In this document: piece by piece, positions 5,970 to 52,867 of the stretch
Layout of the letters: each line of letters starts with the position of its first letter
Numbering within the stretch: position 1 is the stretch's first letter
NCBI GenBank assembly: GCA_964007475.1
Contig: OZ023273.1
Span: 108,932,485-108,996,484 of the forward strand
Direction: 5' to 3'
Source: Hybos culiciformis
Lineage: Eukaryota; Arthropoda; Insecta; Diptera; Hybotidae
Length of the DNA stretch: 64,000 nt
Notes under the pieces: model-generated
The model's input: the letters and a program-made list of their open reading frames with translations, nothing else
What the model was told of the DNA's origin: nothing
Database searches by the model: none
Translations under genes and position numbers: made by a program

Positions 5970-6162
5970 TGATATTTATTATTAATAATTTCTTTTAATC
6001 TGCTTTCTTCTAGATCTTTGTACAGACTGTTCTTTTATTTCATTTCTTTTTAATCAATACAATACTTATTTCTACTTAAAGTTATATTAAATAATTCATA
6101 ATTTTAATATTATTCAAATTCCATTCAGCTTATTTCTTAGTACATACATATATAATATAACA
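5970..6162 (-). repeat. 3' LTR of the gypsy element
   Basis: On the minus strand the LTR starts TGTTATATTA right after the purine tract and ends near ...TATCA at 5970. About 165 bp align to 10265-10430 with 11 differences (10 substitutions and one 1-base indel). At about 190 bp it is short for the family. Confidence 0.85.
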
Positions 6163-6489: not shown

Positions 6490-7075
6490 TAGTAATTGTA
6501 TTTCGATATTCCAATAATTATCAATACCGTTTTTTTTGGTATATTTTTCGAAATTTGAACAGCTCTTTCAGATAATCCATTAGACTTAGGGTATAACGGG
6601 CTTGTAGTTGTTATTTTTATATCAAACTTTTTTGTCCAAAATTTTTAAATTCAAAAGATCCGAATGGATTATTGTCAGCAATAATTTCTTTAGGTATCCC
6701 TAGAGAAGCAAAAACCAATTTTCTCATTAATTCAATAATATTTAGAGTATAATAATCCATGATAACTAAAAAAAAATTTCCTTCAAACTCAAATATATCC
6801 ATTCCAATTTTATCAAAAGGGCAATGAGGAATTTCGCGAGATAAAAGTGGTTCACGTCTCTGATTATTTCTAAATTTTTGACAAACACTACATTTTTCAA
6901 CTATATTTTCAATATCCGTCATTAATCCACGCCAGTAAACAATTTCTCTATTACATGATTTCGTTTTTTCGATGCCGAAATGACATTTGTGCAATTTTTC
7001 CAAGATTTCGTCCCTTAAAGATGTCGGCACTAAAATACGATCATCAAAAAAAATTATATTATTATCTAAAAACAA
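6490..7075 (-). pseudogene. Gypsy integrase (broken)
   Basis: The N-terminal HHCC zinc-binding module is clear: LHKCHFG supplies the His pair and EKCSVCQKF the Cys pair. The catalytic core follows, with the first Asp in GMDIFEF and the second in the motif IPKEIIADN. About 20 residues normally found between DYYT and the GIPKE motif are missing, so there is an internal deletion. A frameshift near 6620 puts the third catalytic residue (Glu, in NGLSER) in another frame, still readable at about 6555-6590. The enzyme would insert element cDNA into the genome; this copy cannot make it. Confidence 0.9.
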
Positions 7076-7283
7076 ATTTTCTGTAAATTTCTAAAAGCTT
7101 TTAACTTTTTCAGGCACTGATTTCTTATTATTAGGCCAACCGTTTTTAATCATTATTTTCAATTCAAATAAGATCGTATCCTTTTCAGTTTCTTGTTGAA
7201 ATTTTAAAATTTTCTTGTCAGAAACATTTATTGAACGAACTAACCCATCTAAATTTTCTAATGTGGCAGTATCTTCACCTTTT

Positions 7284-7741
7284 TTAAAAAGACAAGAAAT
7301 CTGCTACGACCACAAACTTTTCTGGTAAATATTCTAATTTAATTTTATATTTCCATAATTTCATTTTCATACGTTGTAATCTACCTGAAGTAACTTTATT
7401 AATAGATTTATTTAAAATTCCCAGCAGAGGTTTATGATCAGTTTGAATAGTGAAATGTTGACCATAAATCCAATTGTGGAATTTTTTACAAGCAAAACAA
7501 ATATCCAACATTTCCTTTTCAATCTGAGAATAATTAATTTCTGTATCCGTAAGACTTTTTGAAACAAACGAAATAGGTTTACCCATTTGTACAAACAACA
7601 AGCTACCCCATTCTTACTTGCATCAGTTTGTATTGTTATTTCTAAATTAGGATCAAAAGGCTTTAGTTTAGTAGCTTCGGAAATAATTTGTTTGACTGAT
7701 CCAAACAAAAAGTATGAGGCGGTAACCATTGAAAACAACAT
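7284..7741 (-). pseudogene. Gypsy RNase H (broken)
   Basis: Two overlapping frames carry the domain. The first has TIQTDASKNGVACCLY (first catalytic Asp region). After a frameshift near 7590 the second has NYSQIEKEMLDICFAC (catalytic Glu), then TIQTDHKPLLGI (next Asp) and the AADFLS-like tail, here VVADFLSF. This is the RNase HI domain that follows RT in Ty3/gypsy Pol. The frameshift makes it non-functional. Confidence 0.9.
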
Positions 7742-8668
7742 CTTACTTTAATAATTCTCTTGTAGGAGTTGTAATCTCAGCTAAATTTGGAATAGCCTTT
7801 TGTAAAAAATTTACCATTCCTAATAATTTTTTAACGTTTTTTTTTACTTTTTGGAACACCTATATTTTCAATAGCTAAAATTCTATCTGAATCAAAAGAG
7901 ACACACTGCTCTGAAATAATATGCCCTAAAAATTTCTTTTCCTTCTGATAATATTGAAATGTTTCCTTATTAAATTTTATATTCTTAATTTTTGCCCTTT
8001 CCATAAGCTGTATTAAAATTTTATCATGCTCTTGTATATACTATGTGCGTAAATCTAAATATCATCAATATAAATTATTATGCCATCAATACCCTCAAAA
8101 ATTTTTTCATTACATTTTTGAAATGCTTCTGGTGCAACTTTTAATCCAAAAGGCAACCTACAAAATTTATAAAGCCCAAAACGGGAACTAAATGTGCACA
8201 GTTTGCTCGAGTTTTTTCCAGTTTAATTTGGAAAAATCCTTCCTTGTTATCTAATACACTAAAAAAAAATGTATCAGCTATTTTACTAATGACGTCATCA
8301 AATTTAGGAATTAAATAACACTCATCCCTTATATTTTCGTTTAAATTTTTTGGATCCAAACAAACTCTTAAATTACCATTAGATTTTTCAATAATTACCA
8401 AATTTGAAATCCATTCTGATGGTTTCTCAACTTTCTCAATAATTTTCAAATTTTCAAGTCTATTCAATTCTAATTTTAATCTATTATGTAATTTCATTGG
8501 AATCCTTCTAGGTGAATTATCGACAGATTTTGCATCATTTTTCAATTTTATTTCATAGCTGTCAACAAAACATCCAAGACCTTCAAAATTATTTTTATAA
8601 TCTTTCAAAATTTTATCTTTTCCTATTTGTATACAATCTACTCTTTTAACTATGATTTTCACAACCAA
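7742..8668 (-). pseudogene. Gypsy reverse transcriptase (broken)
   Basis: The N-terminal half is a 175-residue open frame at 8141-8668, with conserved blocks RRIPMKLHNRLKLELNRLE, SNLVIIEKSNGNLRVCLDP and FFFSVLDNKEGFFQIKLEK, the last being the palm strand with its catalytic Asp. Downstream the frame shifts. The YIDD active-site motif is readable at 8061-8072 but is followed within two codons by an in-frame stop. The thumb region lies in further broken frames down to about 7750. Confidence 0.92.
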
Positions 8669-8935
8669 TCAAACCCAATAAAGGGACCACCTTTTCTTTA
8701 AAATAAATCTTTCCATACTCACTTCATTTTTAAAAATACACTCATAATGCACTTCTCCAGCTAAATCTAATTCTTGAGCCGAATGAGTCACTAACTTTAA
8801 ATCAGTTTCATCAATTTTTTCTTTTTCAAACATTTGTTCAAACACAGATAATGGCAAAATATTTTCACCTGCACCTGTATATATTTTTACTTTAATAATT
8901 TTACCGTTAATTAAAATTTTCTCAAACTACGATTT
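8669..8935 (-). pseudogene. Gypsy aspartic protease with mutated active site
   Basis: The motif normally reading D-T-G-A appears as K-I-Y-T-G-A-G-E-N followed by ILPLSVFEQ. The catalytic Asp codon is TAT (Tyr), at 8879-8881. Downstream come KLVTHSAQELDLAGEVHYEC and a flap-like region, typical for the retropepsin of insect gypsy elements. Because the Asp is lost, the protein would be inactive even if translated. It sits between the zinc knuckle and RT, as expected. Confidence 0.82.
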
Positions 8936-9032
8936 CTTTTTTACAACTTCATCAATAATAGAATCAATAGAAAAAGCTTCTTCAGCATCTTTTATTTCTT
9001 TTATCTCATTTACAGATTTAAGTAGTACGACA

Positions 9033-9128
9033 GCATATTGCAAAATAATTCAGTTTATTACATTTTTGACAAAACTTCCCAAACGCGGGACATTTGCCAT
9101 AAACATGATTAATTTTACAAAATTTACA
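9033..9128 (-). pseudogene. Gag nucleocapsid zinc knuckles
   Basis: Minus-strand translation gives a CX2CX3HX4C knuckle (CKFCKINHVYGKC), then CPAFGKFCQKCN and a second knuckle in which the expected His is Tyr (NYFAIC). This double-knuckle arrangement is typical of Gag in one common insect gypsy lineage and would bind element RNA. It is separated from the rest of gag by the Kazal insert. Confidence 0.85.
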
Positions 9129-9144
9129 ATTTATTATTTTTTCA
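9128..9144 (-). repeat. Direct repeat flanking the Kazal insert (copy 2)
   Basis: Plus-strand AATTTATTATTTTTTCA. It matches 9517-9533 at 16 of 17 positions (one A/C change). The pair brackets 9145-9516 exactly and is best read as a target-site duplication. On the sense strand of the insert it is A-rich (TGAAAAAATAATAAATT), as for LINE-machinery insertions. Confidence 0.8.
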
Positions 9145-9516
9145 AAAAGTATTTACAAGCTCATTATTATAATTTCATTAATAAATCCCATTTTTTTGTT
9201 GACTCTGACATTTTTCACGATTTTTAATTTGAATCTTTTTTCCAATTAGACTTTTAGTTTTTTGTGTACATTCAAACATGCAGGCATTATCATATGTTAT
9301 ACCATCAGAACCACAAACTGGTTCATAGCTTCTGTTACAATAACATGCTTGAGCATTAATATTATTAACAATTGATGCAAATAAAATCAATGTTATTAAA
9401 AAAATCGAAAAATATTTCATATTAAATTTATTTATTTTTTTTAATTTCTCACTTTCAAACAACAAAATAAAATACAATTATTATTTTAACTAGGGAACTT
9501 TTCTCTTCGCTTGACT
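9145..9516 (-). mobile_element. Kazal-gene retrocopy-like insert inside gag
   Basis: A 372-bp block of non-retroviral sequence between two 17-bp direct repeats. In sense orientation it has about 96 bp of AT-rich leader, an intronless Kazal ORF and a short 33-bp trailer. Taking out the block plus one repeat copy would leave the gag frame running straight into the zinc knuckle, which marks the edges independently of the repeats. An intronless cDNA-like gene with a 17-bp A-rich duplication fits LINE-mediated retrocopying. No poly(A) tail or AATAAA is seen at the 3' end, which is the weak point; 3' truncation or tail loss would be needed. Confidence 0.75.
9178..9420 (-). CDS. Secreted Kazal-type serine protease inhibitor
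   Basis: An 80-residue protein. The ATG at 9420 is chosen because the frame further upstream has only TTG, and because the signal peptide starts exactly here. It has A at -3. Residues 1-23 are a signal peptide (KYFSIFLITLILF core, likely cleavage after NNINA). The mature part has six cysteines at 26, 28, 36, 47, 51 and 71 (C-x-C-x7-C-x10-C-x3-C-x19-C), with the Kazal signature PVCGSDGITYDNAC. Counting from Cys28 as P3, the reactive-site P1 is Arg30, which predicts inhibition of trypsin- or thrombin-like proteases. The short Cys1-Cys2 spacing resembles insect infestin-like domains. Asn29-Arg-Ser is a glycosylation sequon at P2. It is a single domain with a nine-residue tail. The frame is intact although the gypsy ORFs on both sides are broken. 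Expression is unknown: it would depend on the gypsy LTR or a promoter in its own leader. Confidence 0.88.
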   Translation of the reverse strand: MKYFSIFLITLILFASIVNNINAQACYCNRSYEPVCGSDGITYDNACMFECTQKTKSLIGKKIQIKNREKCQSQQKNGIY

Positions 9517-9533
9517 AATTTATTCTTTTTTCA
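9517..9533 (-). repeat. Direct repeat flanking the Kazal insert (copy 1)
   Basis: Plus-strand AATTTATTCTTTTTTCA, 16/17 identical to 9128-9144. It lies where the upstream gag fragment stops making sense; the gag frame hits a stop immediately after it. Confidence 0.8.
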
Positions 9534-10162
9534 TCATTATTATTGCTAAATTTATTAAAATTATTATTAATCTCATTTTCTTGTTTCTGTTGAAACTTAC
9601 CATTCCCAGATTTTTTCCTCTCTTTAGCGTAAACCTCCGTTGTTGACGATGATTCACCTCTTTGTATTTGTAAATTTTTTGATTGCATATTGCTTACTTT
9701 ATCTGCACGTGCCTTTTTAATTGCTTGTTTTAAAGATAAACTATCTGTTTCTAACATCTTTTTTGTCGAGCACACCCAAAACAATTCGATCTATCAGCAT
9801 GCACCTTCTTAGCCTCATGTTTTAGCCAATTTTTTAATATTAAAAAAGAATCAAATTTTTCACTTTGCCGCTGAACTCGACTCCAAAACAATAAACTTTC
9901 ATACATTTCTTTCTTTTTTTGTAAACAGAAAGATTCAAAAGCCTGAAAAACCTTCTCAAGACCTTTTTTTTCATTATTTGTCAGACTCAAAGAGTTATGG
10001 AATAGTTCAGTAGCTTCAAAAATATACCAATTTTCGGTCAATTTTCTTTTTTCTGAAAATCAATAGCAGCCGCAAATTGTTCCCAACTTTTTTGAAAACT
10101 CGCCAGTTTTCAGCTAAATTTCCTTCAGATTTCAAGTCATCAATCTTCTTCAAAAATTCCAT
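9534..10162 (-). pseudogene. Gypsy gag, capsid portion (broken)
   Basis: Likely start at ATG 10162 (MEFLKKIDDLK followed by GNLAENWRVFKK, the usual start of this Gag family). A frameshift near 10035 leads into a frame with TNNEKKGLEKVFQAFESFC and MYESLLFWSRVQRQSEKFDSF, matching the classic gypsy capsid blocks (E-K-x-F-E-x-C, Y-E-x-x-x-F-x-R-x-Q-x-x-x-E-x-F-D-x-F). A second frameshift near 9780 leads into LSLKQAIKKARADKVS and then a Lys/Asn/Gln-rich linker ending at the Kazal insert. Capsid proteins package element RNA; this one cannot be made. Confidence 0.85.
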
Positions 10163-10238
10163 TTTATACTGAATTTTTCTCGGTCTACCACGTTGTTTCC
10201 AAATTAAAAAAAAATTTTCAAAATTCAATAGAATTCGT

Positions 10239-10256
10239 TTTTTACAGGGTGCGCCA
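10239..10256 (-). other. Primer-binding site
   Basis: Minus strand: the LTR ends ...AATAACACA and is followed at once by TGGCGCACCCTGTAAAAA. TGG directly after the LTR CA end is the complement of a tRNA 3' CCA, the primer for minus-strand synthesis. I cannot name the tRNA with certainty. Confidence 0.65.
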
Positions 10257-10444
10257 TGTGTTATTCATTTTTAATAATTTCTTTTAATCAGCTTTCTTCT
10301 CGATCTTTTACAGACTGTTCTTTTATTGCATTTCTTTTTAATCAATACAATATTTATTTCTACTTAAAGTTATATTAAATAATTCTTAATGTTAATATTA
10401 TTTAAATTCCATTCAGCTGATTTCTAAGTATATATAAAAAAAAA
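10257..10444 (-). repeat. 5' LTR of the gypsy element
   Basis: Plus-strand edge TGTGTTATTC at 10257, adjacent to the primer-binding site. It aligns with 5970-6162 through GCTTTCTTC, GACTGTTCTTTTATT and ATTCCATTCAGCT. The outer end has run into poly(A) and is blurred; the TATA-like TATATAAAAA at 10431-10440 lies where the two copies stop matching. Confidence 0.82.
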
Positions 10445-10445
10445 A

Positions 10446-11508
10446 GTTTTAATAACTTTTTTTTTTCTCTGCATAAGCTTATAATAAGATTTGATAATAA
10501 CTTTAATAAATTTAGATAATAACTGTTTTCAAATACTTAAAATTATCATAATTACACGTTTTAAAACATCGAATCCTATGTTATAAATAAATTTTAGCGT
10601 TTGACTTATATATCAAAGAAATTTTACAACATTTCTATTTATATACATATATACTTTTTCATTATTAAATTTAGACTACAATTGACAGATCAACCTTATA
10701 TACACTGATTTATTTCTATTTTGCTAAAGAATATAATATTTTATTTATAATTTTATATTTTTTTTTTTTATTTATTTATTTTTATGCACATGTAGAGCTT
10801 CTTTGAAATTGAAACCATTTCACACAAAAAAAAGTATAAAGTATTAAATTAAAAAAAAATAGGTTTGCAAGTGAAGAAACAAGAAAATATAATGTCTGGA
10901 GAAATAAATTTTTATTTTCATTTGTTTCCTATCGTTAAAAATAATATATACAAATATATTATTCTAGTATTTTTTTTTGCTTAGTGAAAAAAAAAAATGC
11001 ATTTTAAAGAAAAAACAATTTCTAATTAAAGCGACTATATTTCATTAACAATTTTATTAGGCTCGCTAGATAACATCTGATGGTGATTCGATTCGAAATA
11101 GTAAGCTTTACAGGATGATAAAACTTAACCCGACAAATTTTAAAATGTCGTAAAAAATTTTTTCACCAAAATATTTCAATAATCGTTAGTTGGCCTTAGA
11201 CTAATAAAAAAGTAATTAAAAATATTACTAACTTGAATCAAAGTTGAATTAATTTCTTATAAGTAGTAAAATAGGTATTATGTACATTAGAATTATGTTT
11301 ACGATGATGTGGGAGTATTATTTTTAAATTAAAACAAAAATCTTTTTAATCAAAAAAATTTAAATAATTCACAAACAGTTAAAATTAAAAATTTTTGCAC
11401 ATGTACATATGTTGGGATATATTATGTATCTAAGTCTAATCAAACATTATAAATTAAGTGATATTTGATGTATAATTTTATAATAATTTTTTTTTTTTAT
11501 CTTTTCAG
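10446..11508. other. AT-rich non-coding stretch
   Basis: No gene, repeat boundary or RNA supported. Poly-A/T runs only. Confidence 0.5.
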
Positions 11509-19533: not shown

Positions 19534-19590
19534 TATTAGTTGACCTCTCTCGAAAAGTATAAAATTATTGTTAGTCAATAAAATAAAAAT

Positions 19591-20226
19591 ATGAAAGCTG
19601 TCTATATTACTAATTACAAAATGACAACGAATTTTGATTTTTTATTAATTTTATCAATAATTTTTTTGATTTTAACACAATACATAAATAGCCATTTGGA
19701 ATTTTGTACAAAAAATTTTGATAACAGTAGTGTATGGACATTATATTGCAACGGATATTATCCAGAAGAAGCATCATTTTTATATAATGATAAATTAGTA
19801 AATACATTAGATCCATATAGAATATTTTTGCTTATTAATGAAAATATATATGAAAATATAATTTTTATTGCACACGGTAAGACAGTTTTTCAAAAATGCA
19901 ATAAATTTCAACGTATATCAAAATTTGAATATAAACGTTTGGATCCACAGCCACAAATTTCAATTTCACATAATAAAAATGATTTTGTCGAACATTGTTT
20001 GGAATATACAACTGGAGTGGCAGAATTGTTAGTAAAGGAATGTGAAAGTTTAATGCCAGGTGTTAATTTAACTAAAATTGACAATAAGTCACAATTGAGT
20101 AATGTTATATTTCAATATGTGAGCAAAAATTATAATGTAAAACACCCTAGTAAAGCATCAAGTAAAATTAATATATGGTTTTTAATGGAAATTCTAGCGC
20201 CAATATTTCTCCTATTATTATTATAA
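19591..20226 (+). CDS. Secreted, probably GPI-anchored protein of unknown family
   Basis: A 211-residue single-exon gene, the longest intact ORF in the window. ATG at 19591 has A at -3; an alternative in-frame ATG is residue 11, after which MTTNFDFLLILSIIFLILTQ is a strong signal sequence, cleaved near YINS (about residue 34). The mature part has five cysteines (39, 53, 103, 136, 151), N-glycosylation sequons at N45, N159 and N165, and mixed, non-repetitive composition with runs such as DPYRIFLLINENIYENIIFIAHGKTVF. The C-terminus (residues 194-211) is a hydrophobic run ending the protein, preceded by small residues SKASSK, which fits a GPI-attachment signal; a single C-terminal membrane anchor is the alternative. 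I do not recognise the family. An odd cysteine number suggests a free Cys or a dimer. Upstream TATA box and downstream AATAAA complete a plausible transcription unit. Confidence 0.8.
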   Translation: MKAVYITNYKMTTNFDFLLILSIIFLILTQYINSHLEFCTKNFDNSSVWTLYCNGYYPEEASFLYNDKLVNTLDPYRIFLLINENIYENIIFIAHGKTVFQKCNKFQRISKFEYKRLDPQPQISISHNKNDFVEHCLEYTTGVAELLVKECESLMPGVNLTKIDNKSQLSNVIFQYVSKNYNVKHPSKASSKINIWFLMEILAPIFLLLLL

Positions 20227-50500: not shown

Positions 50501-51836
50501 TTACAGTGGTCGATATTAAATTTAAAAAACAAAATTTACCTTTATATTGGGAATTTCTGCAGGTGTGTTACCTTTCTATAATAAAAAAAACAAACAAATA
50601 ATATATTTTTTCGATTTTTCTGACATAGCATTGCCTTTATTCATTTTATATTATACCGTATACTTATAAATAGAGCATATAAATACTTAGTAGTTATAGT
50701 AGTTATACAGCAATGTAAGTACTTTGATTTGCTTTGAAATATCAATTCATGTTAAAAGATTCAAAACTAACTATTGGAAAAAGTCAAGGACATTTTTATA
50801 AATATATACATACATATATATTTTCAATTGTCATATATATTTTATTGAAAAATGAAAATACGGTAATAACAAAAAATAATTTTATATGTTTGCATTAACC
50901 TATAGATATTTGTACTAAACATCGAGTGCTTTAAAAATTATATGCAAAGTGCATATATAACATGCCCTGTGAACCAATAAAGGCCAAATGTAAAATATAC
51001 ATTGCGATAGAAATATTTATTTAACACTTTCTTAATTTATCGAGTGTTTCTTTAATTGAAATAGTTGGATAGCATAATATATTAATAATGAAACTTTTAA
51101 ATACCTACCTATGTTTAAAATAAATAATTATGTACGTTATGAATAAATTACATTTTCAGGATATTTTACTTTGGTTCTTTGTTTGAAAGAATATAAATAA
51201 AGAAAGAAGAAAATATGTCGCTATTGTAACACTTAAGATTCTAGAGTCCTATAACTATTGAATTTCTGAACTGTACAAAAGTTTTTAATTATTCTTTAAA
51301 AACAATTTTTACTTTTTAAAAAAAATGTAAATGAAATATAATAAGAGGTCCTTAAATTAGAAGAGTTTCTATTCGAGTGTAGATCCGAATCGGGGTTATT
51401 AAAATTAATTTCGATGAAAATCGAAAGGTTAAATGCCGATTCCAGGACTCGAAAAGTGTTTAAGACTTCAATTATGAATCATAATTCAGACTTTGGCTGA
51501 AAATGGATTTCAATTAAAATCGGTTTATGTTTAGATGTTATAGAAACAAACAAAAAATTCTAACTTGCGAAAGTATTTTCAATCAAAATGTTGAAAATAA
51601 AATCAGTTATGTACAATTATTCTTTATTAGAGAATTTGTTTGTAAACATATATATATACATATATGAATATGTAATCTTATGTAAGATATGTATGCAAAC
51701 AGCTAGAATTTCATATACTTTTAAATCAAATATAAATTAATATTTTTTAATGCGTTGCGGATCGTTATGTTGTATTTAGTGCTATAGAATTTATATCACT
51801 AAATGGAGTATTATATGCGTCAATACACATGCAATC
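44554..51836. other. AT-rich non-coding stretch
   Basis: No gene supported. A near-palindrome at 47572-47609 is the only bounded structure noted. A mixed-composition patch at 51370-51540 contains repeated AATCG words and may be an old repeat. Confidence 0.45.
47572..47609. repeat. Near-perfect palindrome
   Basis: The core ACACAATATATATTGTGT is an exact 18-bp palindrome, flanked by ATGTTATGT on the left and ACATAACAT on the right, with a 2-base bulge (GC) on the left side. Confidence 0.6.
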
Positions 51837-51907
51837 ATTTAGATGCATCTGCGTAAATAATGAAAAAATTTAGATGCATCAGCGTAAATAATGAAATCAT
51901 TTAGATG
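51837..51907 (+). repeat. 31-bp tandem repeat, 2.3 copies
   Basis: The unit TTTAGATGCATCTGCGTAAA followed by TAATGAAAAAA repeats with AGATG starts at 51841, 51872 and 51903. The second copy has CATCAGCG for CATCTGCG. Confidence 0.8.
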
Positions 51908-52047
51908 TTTTGTTTTGAATATTACGTAATACCTAAACAAACATAATATCTCTCACAATATTTCAATACAGCCAAATACAAAAAAAAAAAATGAGAAAAA
52001 ATGAGAAAAAAAAATATTCTCTCTTTGCAACTACCTCTCCTACAGTA

Positions 52048-52230
52048 TATTGGATATGTAAACAAAATTTGTTATACAACTCGTTCTGTATTTACACAAA
52101 AATACATTGACACTTGTCAATTTATATCACTCGACCTTCGGTCTCGTGATATAAGTATTGACTCGTGTCAATGTATTTTTGTGTATACAGAACTCTTAAT
52201 TAATAACAAATTTAGTTTACATATTCAATA
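52048..52230. mobile_element. Near-perfect palindromic foldback element (about 183 bp)
   Basis: From TATTGGATATGTAAAC (52048) to GTTTACATATTCAATA (52230) the two halves are reverse complements with few mismatches. Shared blocks include TTCTGTA(T)TACACAAAAATAC, ATTGACAC and TATATCAC. They turn at CGACC-TTCG-GTC around 52132-52143. RNA from either strand would form a long hairpin. The TSD cannot be fixed. It is a foldback MITE or a hairpin-RNA locus. Confidence 0.8.
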
Positions 52231-52867
52231 ATCTACTATTAAATCTTTATTTTCATAAATTATTACGTACATTACGTTTTTTTTTTCCTAATTTGCATAT
52301 AAATTACTCTAAGAAATAATTTTTTTTTTATGAAATATGATTATAAATAATGAATGCTTATAATGTGAGCGCACGTGCTTATTTTAATTAATATAATAAT
52401 GATTACTGTATATGATTAAAGCTTCTAAATATATTTTAACATTTAAAAATATTTATTTAACGCTTCAAATCAATTTATTCATTGTTTATTTTTTGTGCAA
52501 TTTAGTTGCACAGTAAAAGGCGAAAAATAAAGAAAAACATAATTACGAAAAAAATTAATTCCCATAACTACAAAGACTTAAAATTATTATAATTTGTAAT
52601 AATCGAACATAATTATATAGGAAAACTTTTACAGTAGTTGCATCAGAAATAAAATTAAATTATCGAACAAAAAATATATATACTTAGGTTGTGGTGGGTT
52701 ATCCATATATTTTTTAGATAATTATATTATTGTTTTAGATTTGTGTCAAAATGCTTGAAAATGTAAGAAAATCATTAAATCAAATGAATTTCTAGATATT
52801 ATGCGCAATTTAATTACGGTTTATTTGTAAATTGAATTTAAAATTATAATTCTGAAATTGACTAATA

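Follow-up and report, generated by a model that had tools for sequence, protein, structure and literature searches.

Host genes captured by LTR retrotransposons or retroviruses can be found in sense orientation inside gag, with tailless junctions that display microhomology. In mammals, tailless retrocopies are flanked by target duplications, as described in the available portions of two reports (PMC5322556; PMC2912911), and a screen for tailless retropseudogenes gives the flanking target duplication as 8-35 nt (PMC5322556). In humans, class 2 templated insertions, as far as the accessible text of the report characterizes them, show microhomology and filler sequence with no target duplication (PMC5110952).

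The insert described here, an intact Kazal inhibitor gene that interrupts the gag of a gypsy-type element in Hybos culiciformis, resembles a retroviral capture in that a host gene lies in sense orientation in gag, is tailless and shows microhomology. It differs in that dating and distribution favour arrival after integration of the element, and in that it breaks gag and is present in one copy only. The tailless retropseudogenes, in the part of the paper available, have a target duplication, no oligo(A) tail and a 3′ truncation relative to the likely transcript; the insert has a duplication and no tail as well, and may likewise be 3′ truncated. However the retropseudogenes are from therian mammals, are linked to LINE1 and derive mostly from small RNAs, whereas the insert is a protein gene with an intronless donor and a presumed RNA step (PMC5322556). 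Templated sequence insertions are, like the insert, short patches from a distant site. The insert shares a target duplication with class 1 and microhomology plus filler with class 2, and with a duplication but no poly(A) tail or signal it fits neither class fully, as these are defined in the accessible text; assignment to class 2 was rejected because at least 7 bp are duplicated (PMC5110952). In the literature searched, judged mostly by titles, no capture of a Kazal gene by a retrotransposon was found.

The interrupted gypsy-type element

The window, i.e., the whole stretch of 64,000 nt that was analysed, spans C1:108,932,485-108,996,484 in a genome of 342 Mb, C1 being a contig of 152 Mb. The host of the insert is an LTR retrotransposon on the minus strand of the window, with two LTRs, a gag zinc knuckle, RNase H and an integrase zinc-binding domain in the order of the Ty3/gypsy-type layout. 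Repeat comparison places the 5′ LTR core at 10259..10434 and the 3′ LTR core at 5970..6146 (13 of 176 compared bases differ). The gag gene is interrupted: its upstream part (9515..10264) consists of three overlapping, frameshifted open frames, and its zinc-knuckle part, recognized by inspection, lies at 9033..9134. The pol region (6617..8668) is broken into an RT-like ORF (8141-8668; assigned by position and inspection, with no Pfam match), RNase H (7284-7613; Pfam) and the integrase zinc-binding domain (6617-7090; Pfam); the integrase piece has one unnamed match in the protein database. All of these features are on the minus strand, and the element copy is frameshifted at multiple places. Rfam gave no matches within the window.

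Two other features of the window should be mentioned. A 214-aa ORF at 19582-20226 (plus strand), with hydrophobic ends and, by inspection, the look of a secreted or membrane-anchored protein, has no Pfam match. Positions 51731-52242 contain a dispersed repeat built around a 31-bp tandem core, which is also present near the Kazal paralogue described below (L008:3838-4675), with ~93-94% identity in two main pieces.

The Kazal gene

The insert carries an intact Kazal ORF of 80 codons plus stop (9178..9420, minus strand). The Kazal domain (9208..9351, minus strand), which Pfam delimits as residues 43-90 of a 99-aa open frame, matches Kazal_1 with an E value of 3e-12 and 46.8 bits (curated cut-off 21) and Kazal_2 with an E value of 3.2e-8 and 34 bits (curated cut-off 22.8). 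The six cysteines read from the translation are in Kazal order, C-x-C...C...C-x3-C...C, and N-terminal residues 1-23 are hydrophobic and signal-peptide-like by inspection. Thus the open ORF, the Pfam match and the six cysteines bear out the preliminary description of a complete, intronless Kazal gene within gag. An Arg is the second residue after Cys2, a position that we take to be P1 by the Kazal rule; should the gene be expressed, the product would be secreted and, from this P1 Arg, would inhibit trypsin-like proteases. A single-sequence structure model has a mean pLDDT of 57.7 and was set aside.

A homologue search of the protein database with the single Kazal protein found none, and a three-row Kazal alignment drew three weak matches, those named being from Orchesella cincta (44% over 69%) and Chamberlinius hualienensis (52% over 36%). 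In viral contigs, 31 stretches fit a search pattern and none was confirmed as a relative. The 37 PDB sequences matched have agrin and ovomucoid as the two top scores and include rhodniin, infestin and dipetalin. The window copy shares six cysteines and a short Cys1-Cys2 spacing with these insect C-x-C Kazal inhibitors, and we assume by this spacing that it belongs with them; unlike that group it has a single domain with P1 Arg, and is known here from its sequence.

Empty sites in other copies of the element

None of the five other gag copies found has the Kazal insert, which is thus present in one of six, repeat counts from the genome search being lower bounds. In the two close copies, L016 (C1:105.82 Mb) and L017 (C1:57.93 Mb), gag runs into the zinc knuckle without Kazal sequence. 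The 17-base site that is repeated in the window is single in L016; its recurrence in L017 is due to an 83-bp tandem duplication (L017:3370-3535) of the gag stretch that contains the target site. Three distant copies (L021-L023, 67% at the DNA level) have less than 100 bp from gag to the zinc knuckle and no Kazal sequence between. Since the window copy has the repeats and empty sites are found elsewhere, the window copy is the derived one. The proposal that the gene had been captured within the element family, so that the same insert would be found in other copies, is not supported by these five. L017 is itself broken by a different sequence, an 803-bp DNA-transposon-like insertion (L017:2464-3266) whose inverted ends align over 47 columns (83%) and which is flanked by GTAC on both sides.

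Repeats and junctions

The direct repeats at 9128-9144 and 9517-9533 are identical at 16 of 17 positions. When 41-bp edge zones were compared, none of 1000 dinucleotide shuffles gave a 17-base match with at most one mismatch, and of 3000 real pairs of places in the window that are 389 bp apart one did; with 81-bp zones the counts were 3 of 1000 and 9 of 3000. The repeats are therefore real, as had been described from inspection. Up to the right-hand repeat gag keeps to one frame, and past the left-hand repeat the zinc knuckle is in another. Discounting 389 bp, the block at 9145-9516 plus one repeat (389 mod 3 = 2), brings the two into register, and the two close copies run straight across, so that the frame register reported earlier also holds.

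Alignment with the empty sites and with the paralogue re-delimits the insert as 382 bp (9145..9526, minus strand), absent from L016 and L017, with paralogue homology at 9153-9526. Thus the repeats and the frame do set the edges, as had been proposed, but the exact edges shift. The 3′ repeat copy (9128..9144, minus strand) is derived from gag, with 16 of 17 bases like the empty site of L016 and L017. The 5′ repeat copy is composite. The sole base that distinguishes the repeats is a G in the 5′ copy, as in the paralogue, and a T in the 3′ copy and in both empty copies; the 5′ copy therefore consists of 7 gag bases (9527..9533, minus strand), by paralogue and empty-site alignment the minimal target duplication, and 10 donor-like bases (9517..9526, minus strand) identical to the paralogue, including the mismatch G. 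A 10-base match of this kind has a chance of ~1.3e-5 at window composition. These 10 bases also match the 3′ repeat copy at 9 of 10 positions, and 8 of them, AATAAATT, occur in the gag target as well and form a 5′ microhomology. A target-site duplication is thus present, its sequence being single in the empty site; it comprises for certain 7 bp of gag, and reaches 17 bp at most, when the overlap is included as a microhomology used in annealing. What had been called a 17-bp duplication is upheld for at least 7 bp of gag, and the remainder overlaps the donor.

At the 3′ edge, 8 bp (9145..9152, minus strand) are unlike both the paralogue and the empty gag site and are either filler or diverged sequence. 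The window has the 8-mer at 17 other places, and at one further place (38998) a 12-base string that crosses the edge; these matches carry no weight for a templating of the filler from nearby. A poly(A) or LINE-like tail was looked for at the 3′ edge of the insert and none was seen. In a scan for five poly(A) signal hexamers, homology was found to stop 106 nt before the first AATAAA of the paralogue; by inspection, an AATAAT is present shortly before the end of homology. A processed retrocopy of the poly(A) type is not supported, the insert having no tail and the AATAAA lying beyond the end of homology.

The donor cluster

A search of the genome DNA with the block gave seven matches, two of them full length: the window itself and C1:100,462,420-100,462,785. 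The latter is a paralogue 8.5 Mb from the window on the same contig, with 94% identity over 364 of 372 bases and a Kazal ORF of 74 codons that has no introns over the matched span. At the protein level, 11 of 13 matches to the Kazal protein lie at C1:100.46-100.98 Mb, the paralogue among them and two of the 11 within one 303-aa frame; the remaining two are the window itself and one on C2. Judged by sequence, this cluster is the source family, and the expected parental Kazal family is thus located on the same contig. The actual parent could instead have been a sister of this paralogue that has since been lost. Within the cluster, the open stretch at L009:3905-4693 carries four to five matches to the Kazal domain, all in a single frame, and the paralogue (L008:4970-5194) displays a Ser at P2′ and three changed codons beside the reactive site.

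Gag sequence was sought near the paralogue by comparing window positions 8500-10499 with 10 kb around it, and these match in the block only. The retroposition proposal had been said to fall if the parent were intronless and matched beyond the repeats into gag. The paralogue is indeed intronless, but its match extends only 10 bases into the repeat and not beyond. Because the coding part of the paralogue is itself without an intron, intron loss was rejected as an assay for retroposition, and missing introns say nothing on a retrocopy origin. The LINE-mediated retrocopy first proposed is therefore not substantiated in its original form: the intron comparison is uninformative, there is no poly(A), and homology ends short of AATAAA.

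Age of the insert and sequence change

The LTRs of the window element have diverged to a K2P distance of 0.078; in L016 the LTRs differ at 1 of 181 bases, and in the LTR-like pair of L017 all 177 compared bases are identical. The insert and the paralogue differ at 11 of 369 bases (K2P 0.031), with 3 indels; outside the shared coding part the count is 1 of 144, and in strictly untranslated sequence 1 of 126. Against the LTR differences, Fisher tests gave p 0.025 for the block, p 0.004 for 1/144 and p 0.010 for 1/126. In pol, 30 changes in 878 bp are exclusive to the window copy, a number that fits an old insertion of the element. The contrast of 30/878 with 1/144 falls short of significance (p 0.11), and has p 0.019 when the leader is included (1/213). 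The insert is thus probably younger than the element, although regional rates may differ and the indels weaken the contrast. Spread of the gene by the element, which the preliminary description had raised, is not supported, given its presence in one of the six copies found, the broken gag frame, the frameshifts of the element, and a divergence of the insert that is lower than that of the LTRs. Nor is an element-transduced gene supported as a class for the insert by the absence from the five other copies found and the comparison of 1/144 with 13/176, with the proviso that pol by itself does not separate the ages.

Over the 74 codons shared with the paralogue, there are 8 nonsynonymous changes in 179 sites and 1 synonymous change in 43 sites (pN 0.045 and pS 0.023), and the proposed dN/dS comparison thus shows no trace of purifying selection. 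The 3 indels all lie outside the shared codons; two are in the 5′ UTR, and the third is beyond the stop of the paralogue, inside a short C-terminal extension of the window copy. Base changes number 10 of 156 in the mature part (with codon 75) and 1 of 170 in the 5′ UTR and leader (p 0.004), a clustering recognized in hindsight. Codons 27, 31 and 32, beside the reactive site, contain four base changes; by Kazal position rules we take these codons to be P4, P1′ and P2′. At P2′ the window copy has Tyr and the paralogue Ser. Among the other Kazal sequences listed, 8 of 11 have Tyr or Trp and none has Ser; the change is therefore likely on the donor side.

Retention of the relocated gene as a functional gene under selection appears unlikely. 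The intact ORF, the lack of indels in the shared codons, the pile-up of changes in the mature part, with four beside the reactive site, and the P2′ Tyr kept by the window copy are points in its favour. However pN is not below pS, a 240-bp frame would be expected to stay open in so young an insert even if selection were absent, the P2′ change is likelier on the side of the paralogue, and the clusters were recognized post hoc.

LINE-like insertions in this genome

LINE-kind endonuclease domains are abundant in this genome: all 150 of the domains scored, from 1051 candidates, match the profile (best E 9e-22). The profile also gave a signal in 3 of 14 control genomes, in one of these above the cut-off. 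Twelve young LINE-like copies from four families were inspected, and 11 have a string of 10-15 bases common to both flanks; in L028 the flank string is 4 bases only, and part of some flank strings is tail. In all 12 the tail is made of AACCT or AAAT repeats and not of poly(A). Insertion by such LINE-like elements here makes duplications of similar size without poly(A), and the absence of poly(A) is therefore weak evidence against a LINE in this genome.

Two of the young LINE-like families, represented by L026-L031 (C1:7.83, 64.62, 68.29 and 114.58 Mb; C2:8.31 and 70.07 Mb), end in AACCTAACCT... repeats. The AACCTAACCT repeat is presumably the complement of the arthropod telomere repeat TTAGG. 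These six copies are at unrelated sites, and five of them have their own flank duplications.

Possible origins of the insert

We favour, with about even confidence, a tailless, target-primed single copy of a Kazal transcript, placed in an old gypsy-type element. One extra copy of a cluster Kazal gene would have been inserted 8.5 Mb away, in sense orientation to gag. The staggered duplication points to paired nicks: gag would have been cut in a staggered manner, and a LINE-type reverse transcriptase would have primed internally, without poly(A), on the Kazal transcript. The far end of the cDNA would have paired with the opposite overhang at AATAAATT, and fill-in would have doubled the target, which gives the structure of a “tailless” retrocopy. 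The donor family, the empty sites, the target duplication of at least 7 bp, the 5′ microhomology with its donor-type G, an insert less diverged than the LTRs, and the numerous LINE-kind endonucleases are all consistent with such a copy. That the insert starts at the 5′ end of the donor mRNA is a guess. Against a tailless copy it should be noted that the Kazal 3′ edge lacks the AAAT or AACCT tail, and LINEs with a specificity for their own tail seldom copy mRNAs. The L1-type nick motif is TTTT/AA, which the supposed nick does not resemble. The donor is intronless, so that introns cannot prove an RNA step, and a 5′ microhomology with an 8-bp filler is just as characteristic of a break repaired by a DNA patch. 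Such a DNA route, in which a staggered double-strand break in gag was patched from the Kazal locus by way of the AATAAATT microhomology and closed by end joining with 8 filler bases, is a tentative but substantial alternative. It would account for the lack of a tail, the 8-base microhomology, the filler-like 8 bp and a 3′ edge that is off the canonical poly(A) site, and class 2 templated insertions likewise show microhomology and non-templated bases in the accessible text of the report (PMC5110952). However the duplication takes in at least 7 bp of gag, and class 2 insertions are described in that text without target duplication (PMC5110952). In addition, a whole coding region with short flanks would be likelier to come from a transcript than from a random 374-bp piece, although inserts with ORFs are also those that catch the eye.

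A transcript could also have been acquired by the element itself, if the polymerase, while reverse transcribing the gypsy RNA, switched to a Kazal mRNA packaged with it and then returned to the same gag stretch; the copy would then have been born with the gene and could have spread it. The sense orientation, the missing tail, a 10-base landing site (9/10) and the duplicated stretch fit a jump out and back, and the pol changes (30/878) do not differ significantly from those of the insert (1/144; p 0.11). The same 1/144 set against the LTRs (13/176, p 0.004), the lack of the Kazal block in all five other copies and a zinc knuckle put out of frame by the insert nevertheless make a retroviral-type capture improbable. 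A more specific form of it, in which the polymerase took the Kazal mRNA at AATAAATT to give an element born transducing, with an intact inhibitor whose reactive-site loop then diverged fast, must be regarded as highly improbable. An assembly artefact or a join of haplotypes is scarcely credible: the window is inside the 152-Mb contig, and a misjoin would hardly produce a target duplication, a microhomology and a copy that is 3% diverged from the paralogue.

Implications

With a tailless transcript copy as the preferred reading, the insert looks like an ordinary one-off gene duplication and not a gene carried by an element. The donor family, the insert and the empty site are all in one genome, and the junctions can thus be read base by base. 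They show that a neat-looking “target duplication”, alike at 16 of 17 bases, can be part donor sequence, through microhomology, which matters where such repeats serve as proof of LINE retroposition. Spread of a defence gene by a mobile element is not supported here; a short intronless gene of the defence type can, however, leave its tandem cluster in this way.
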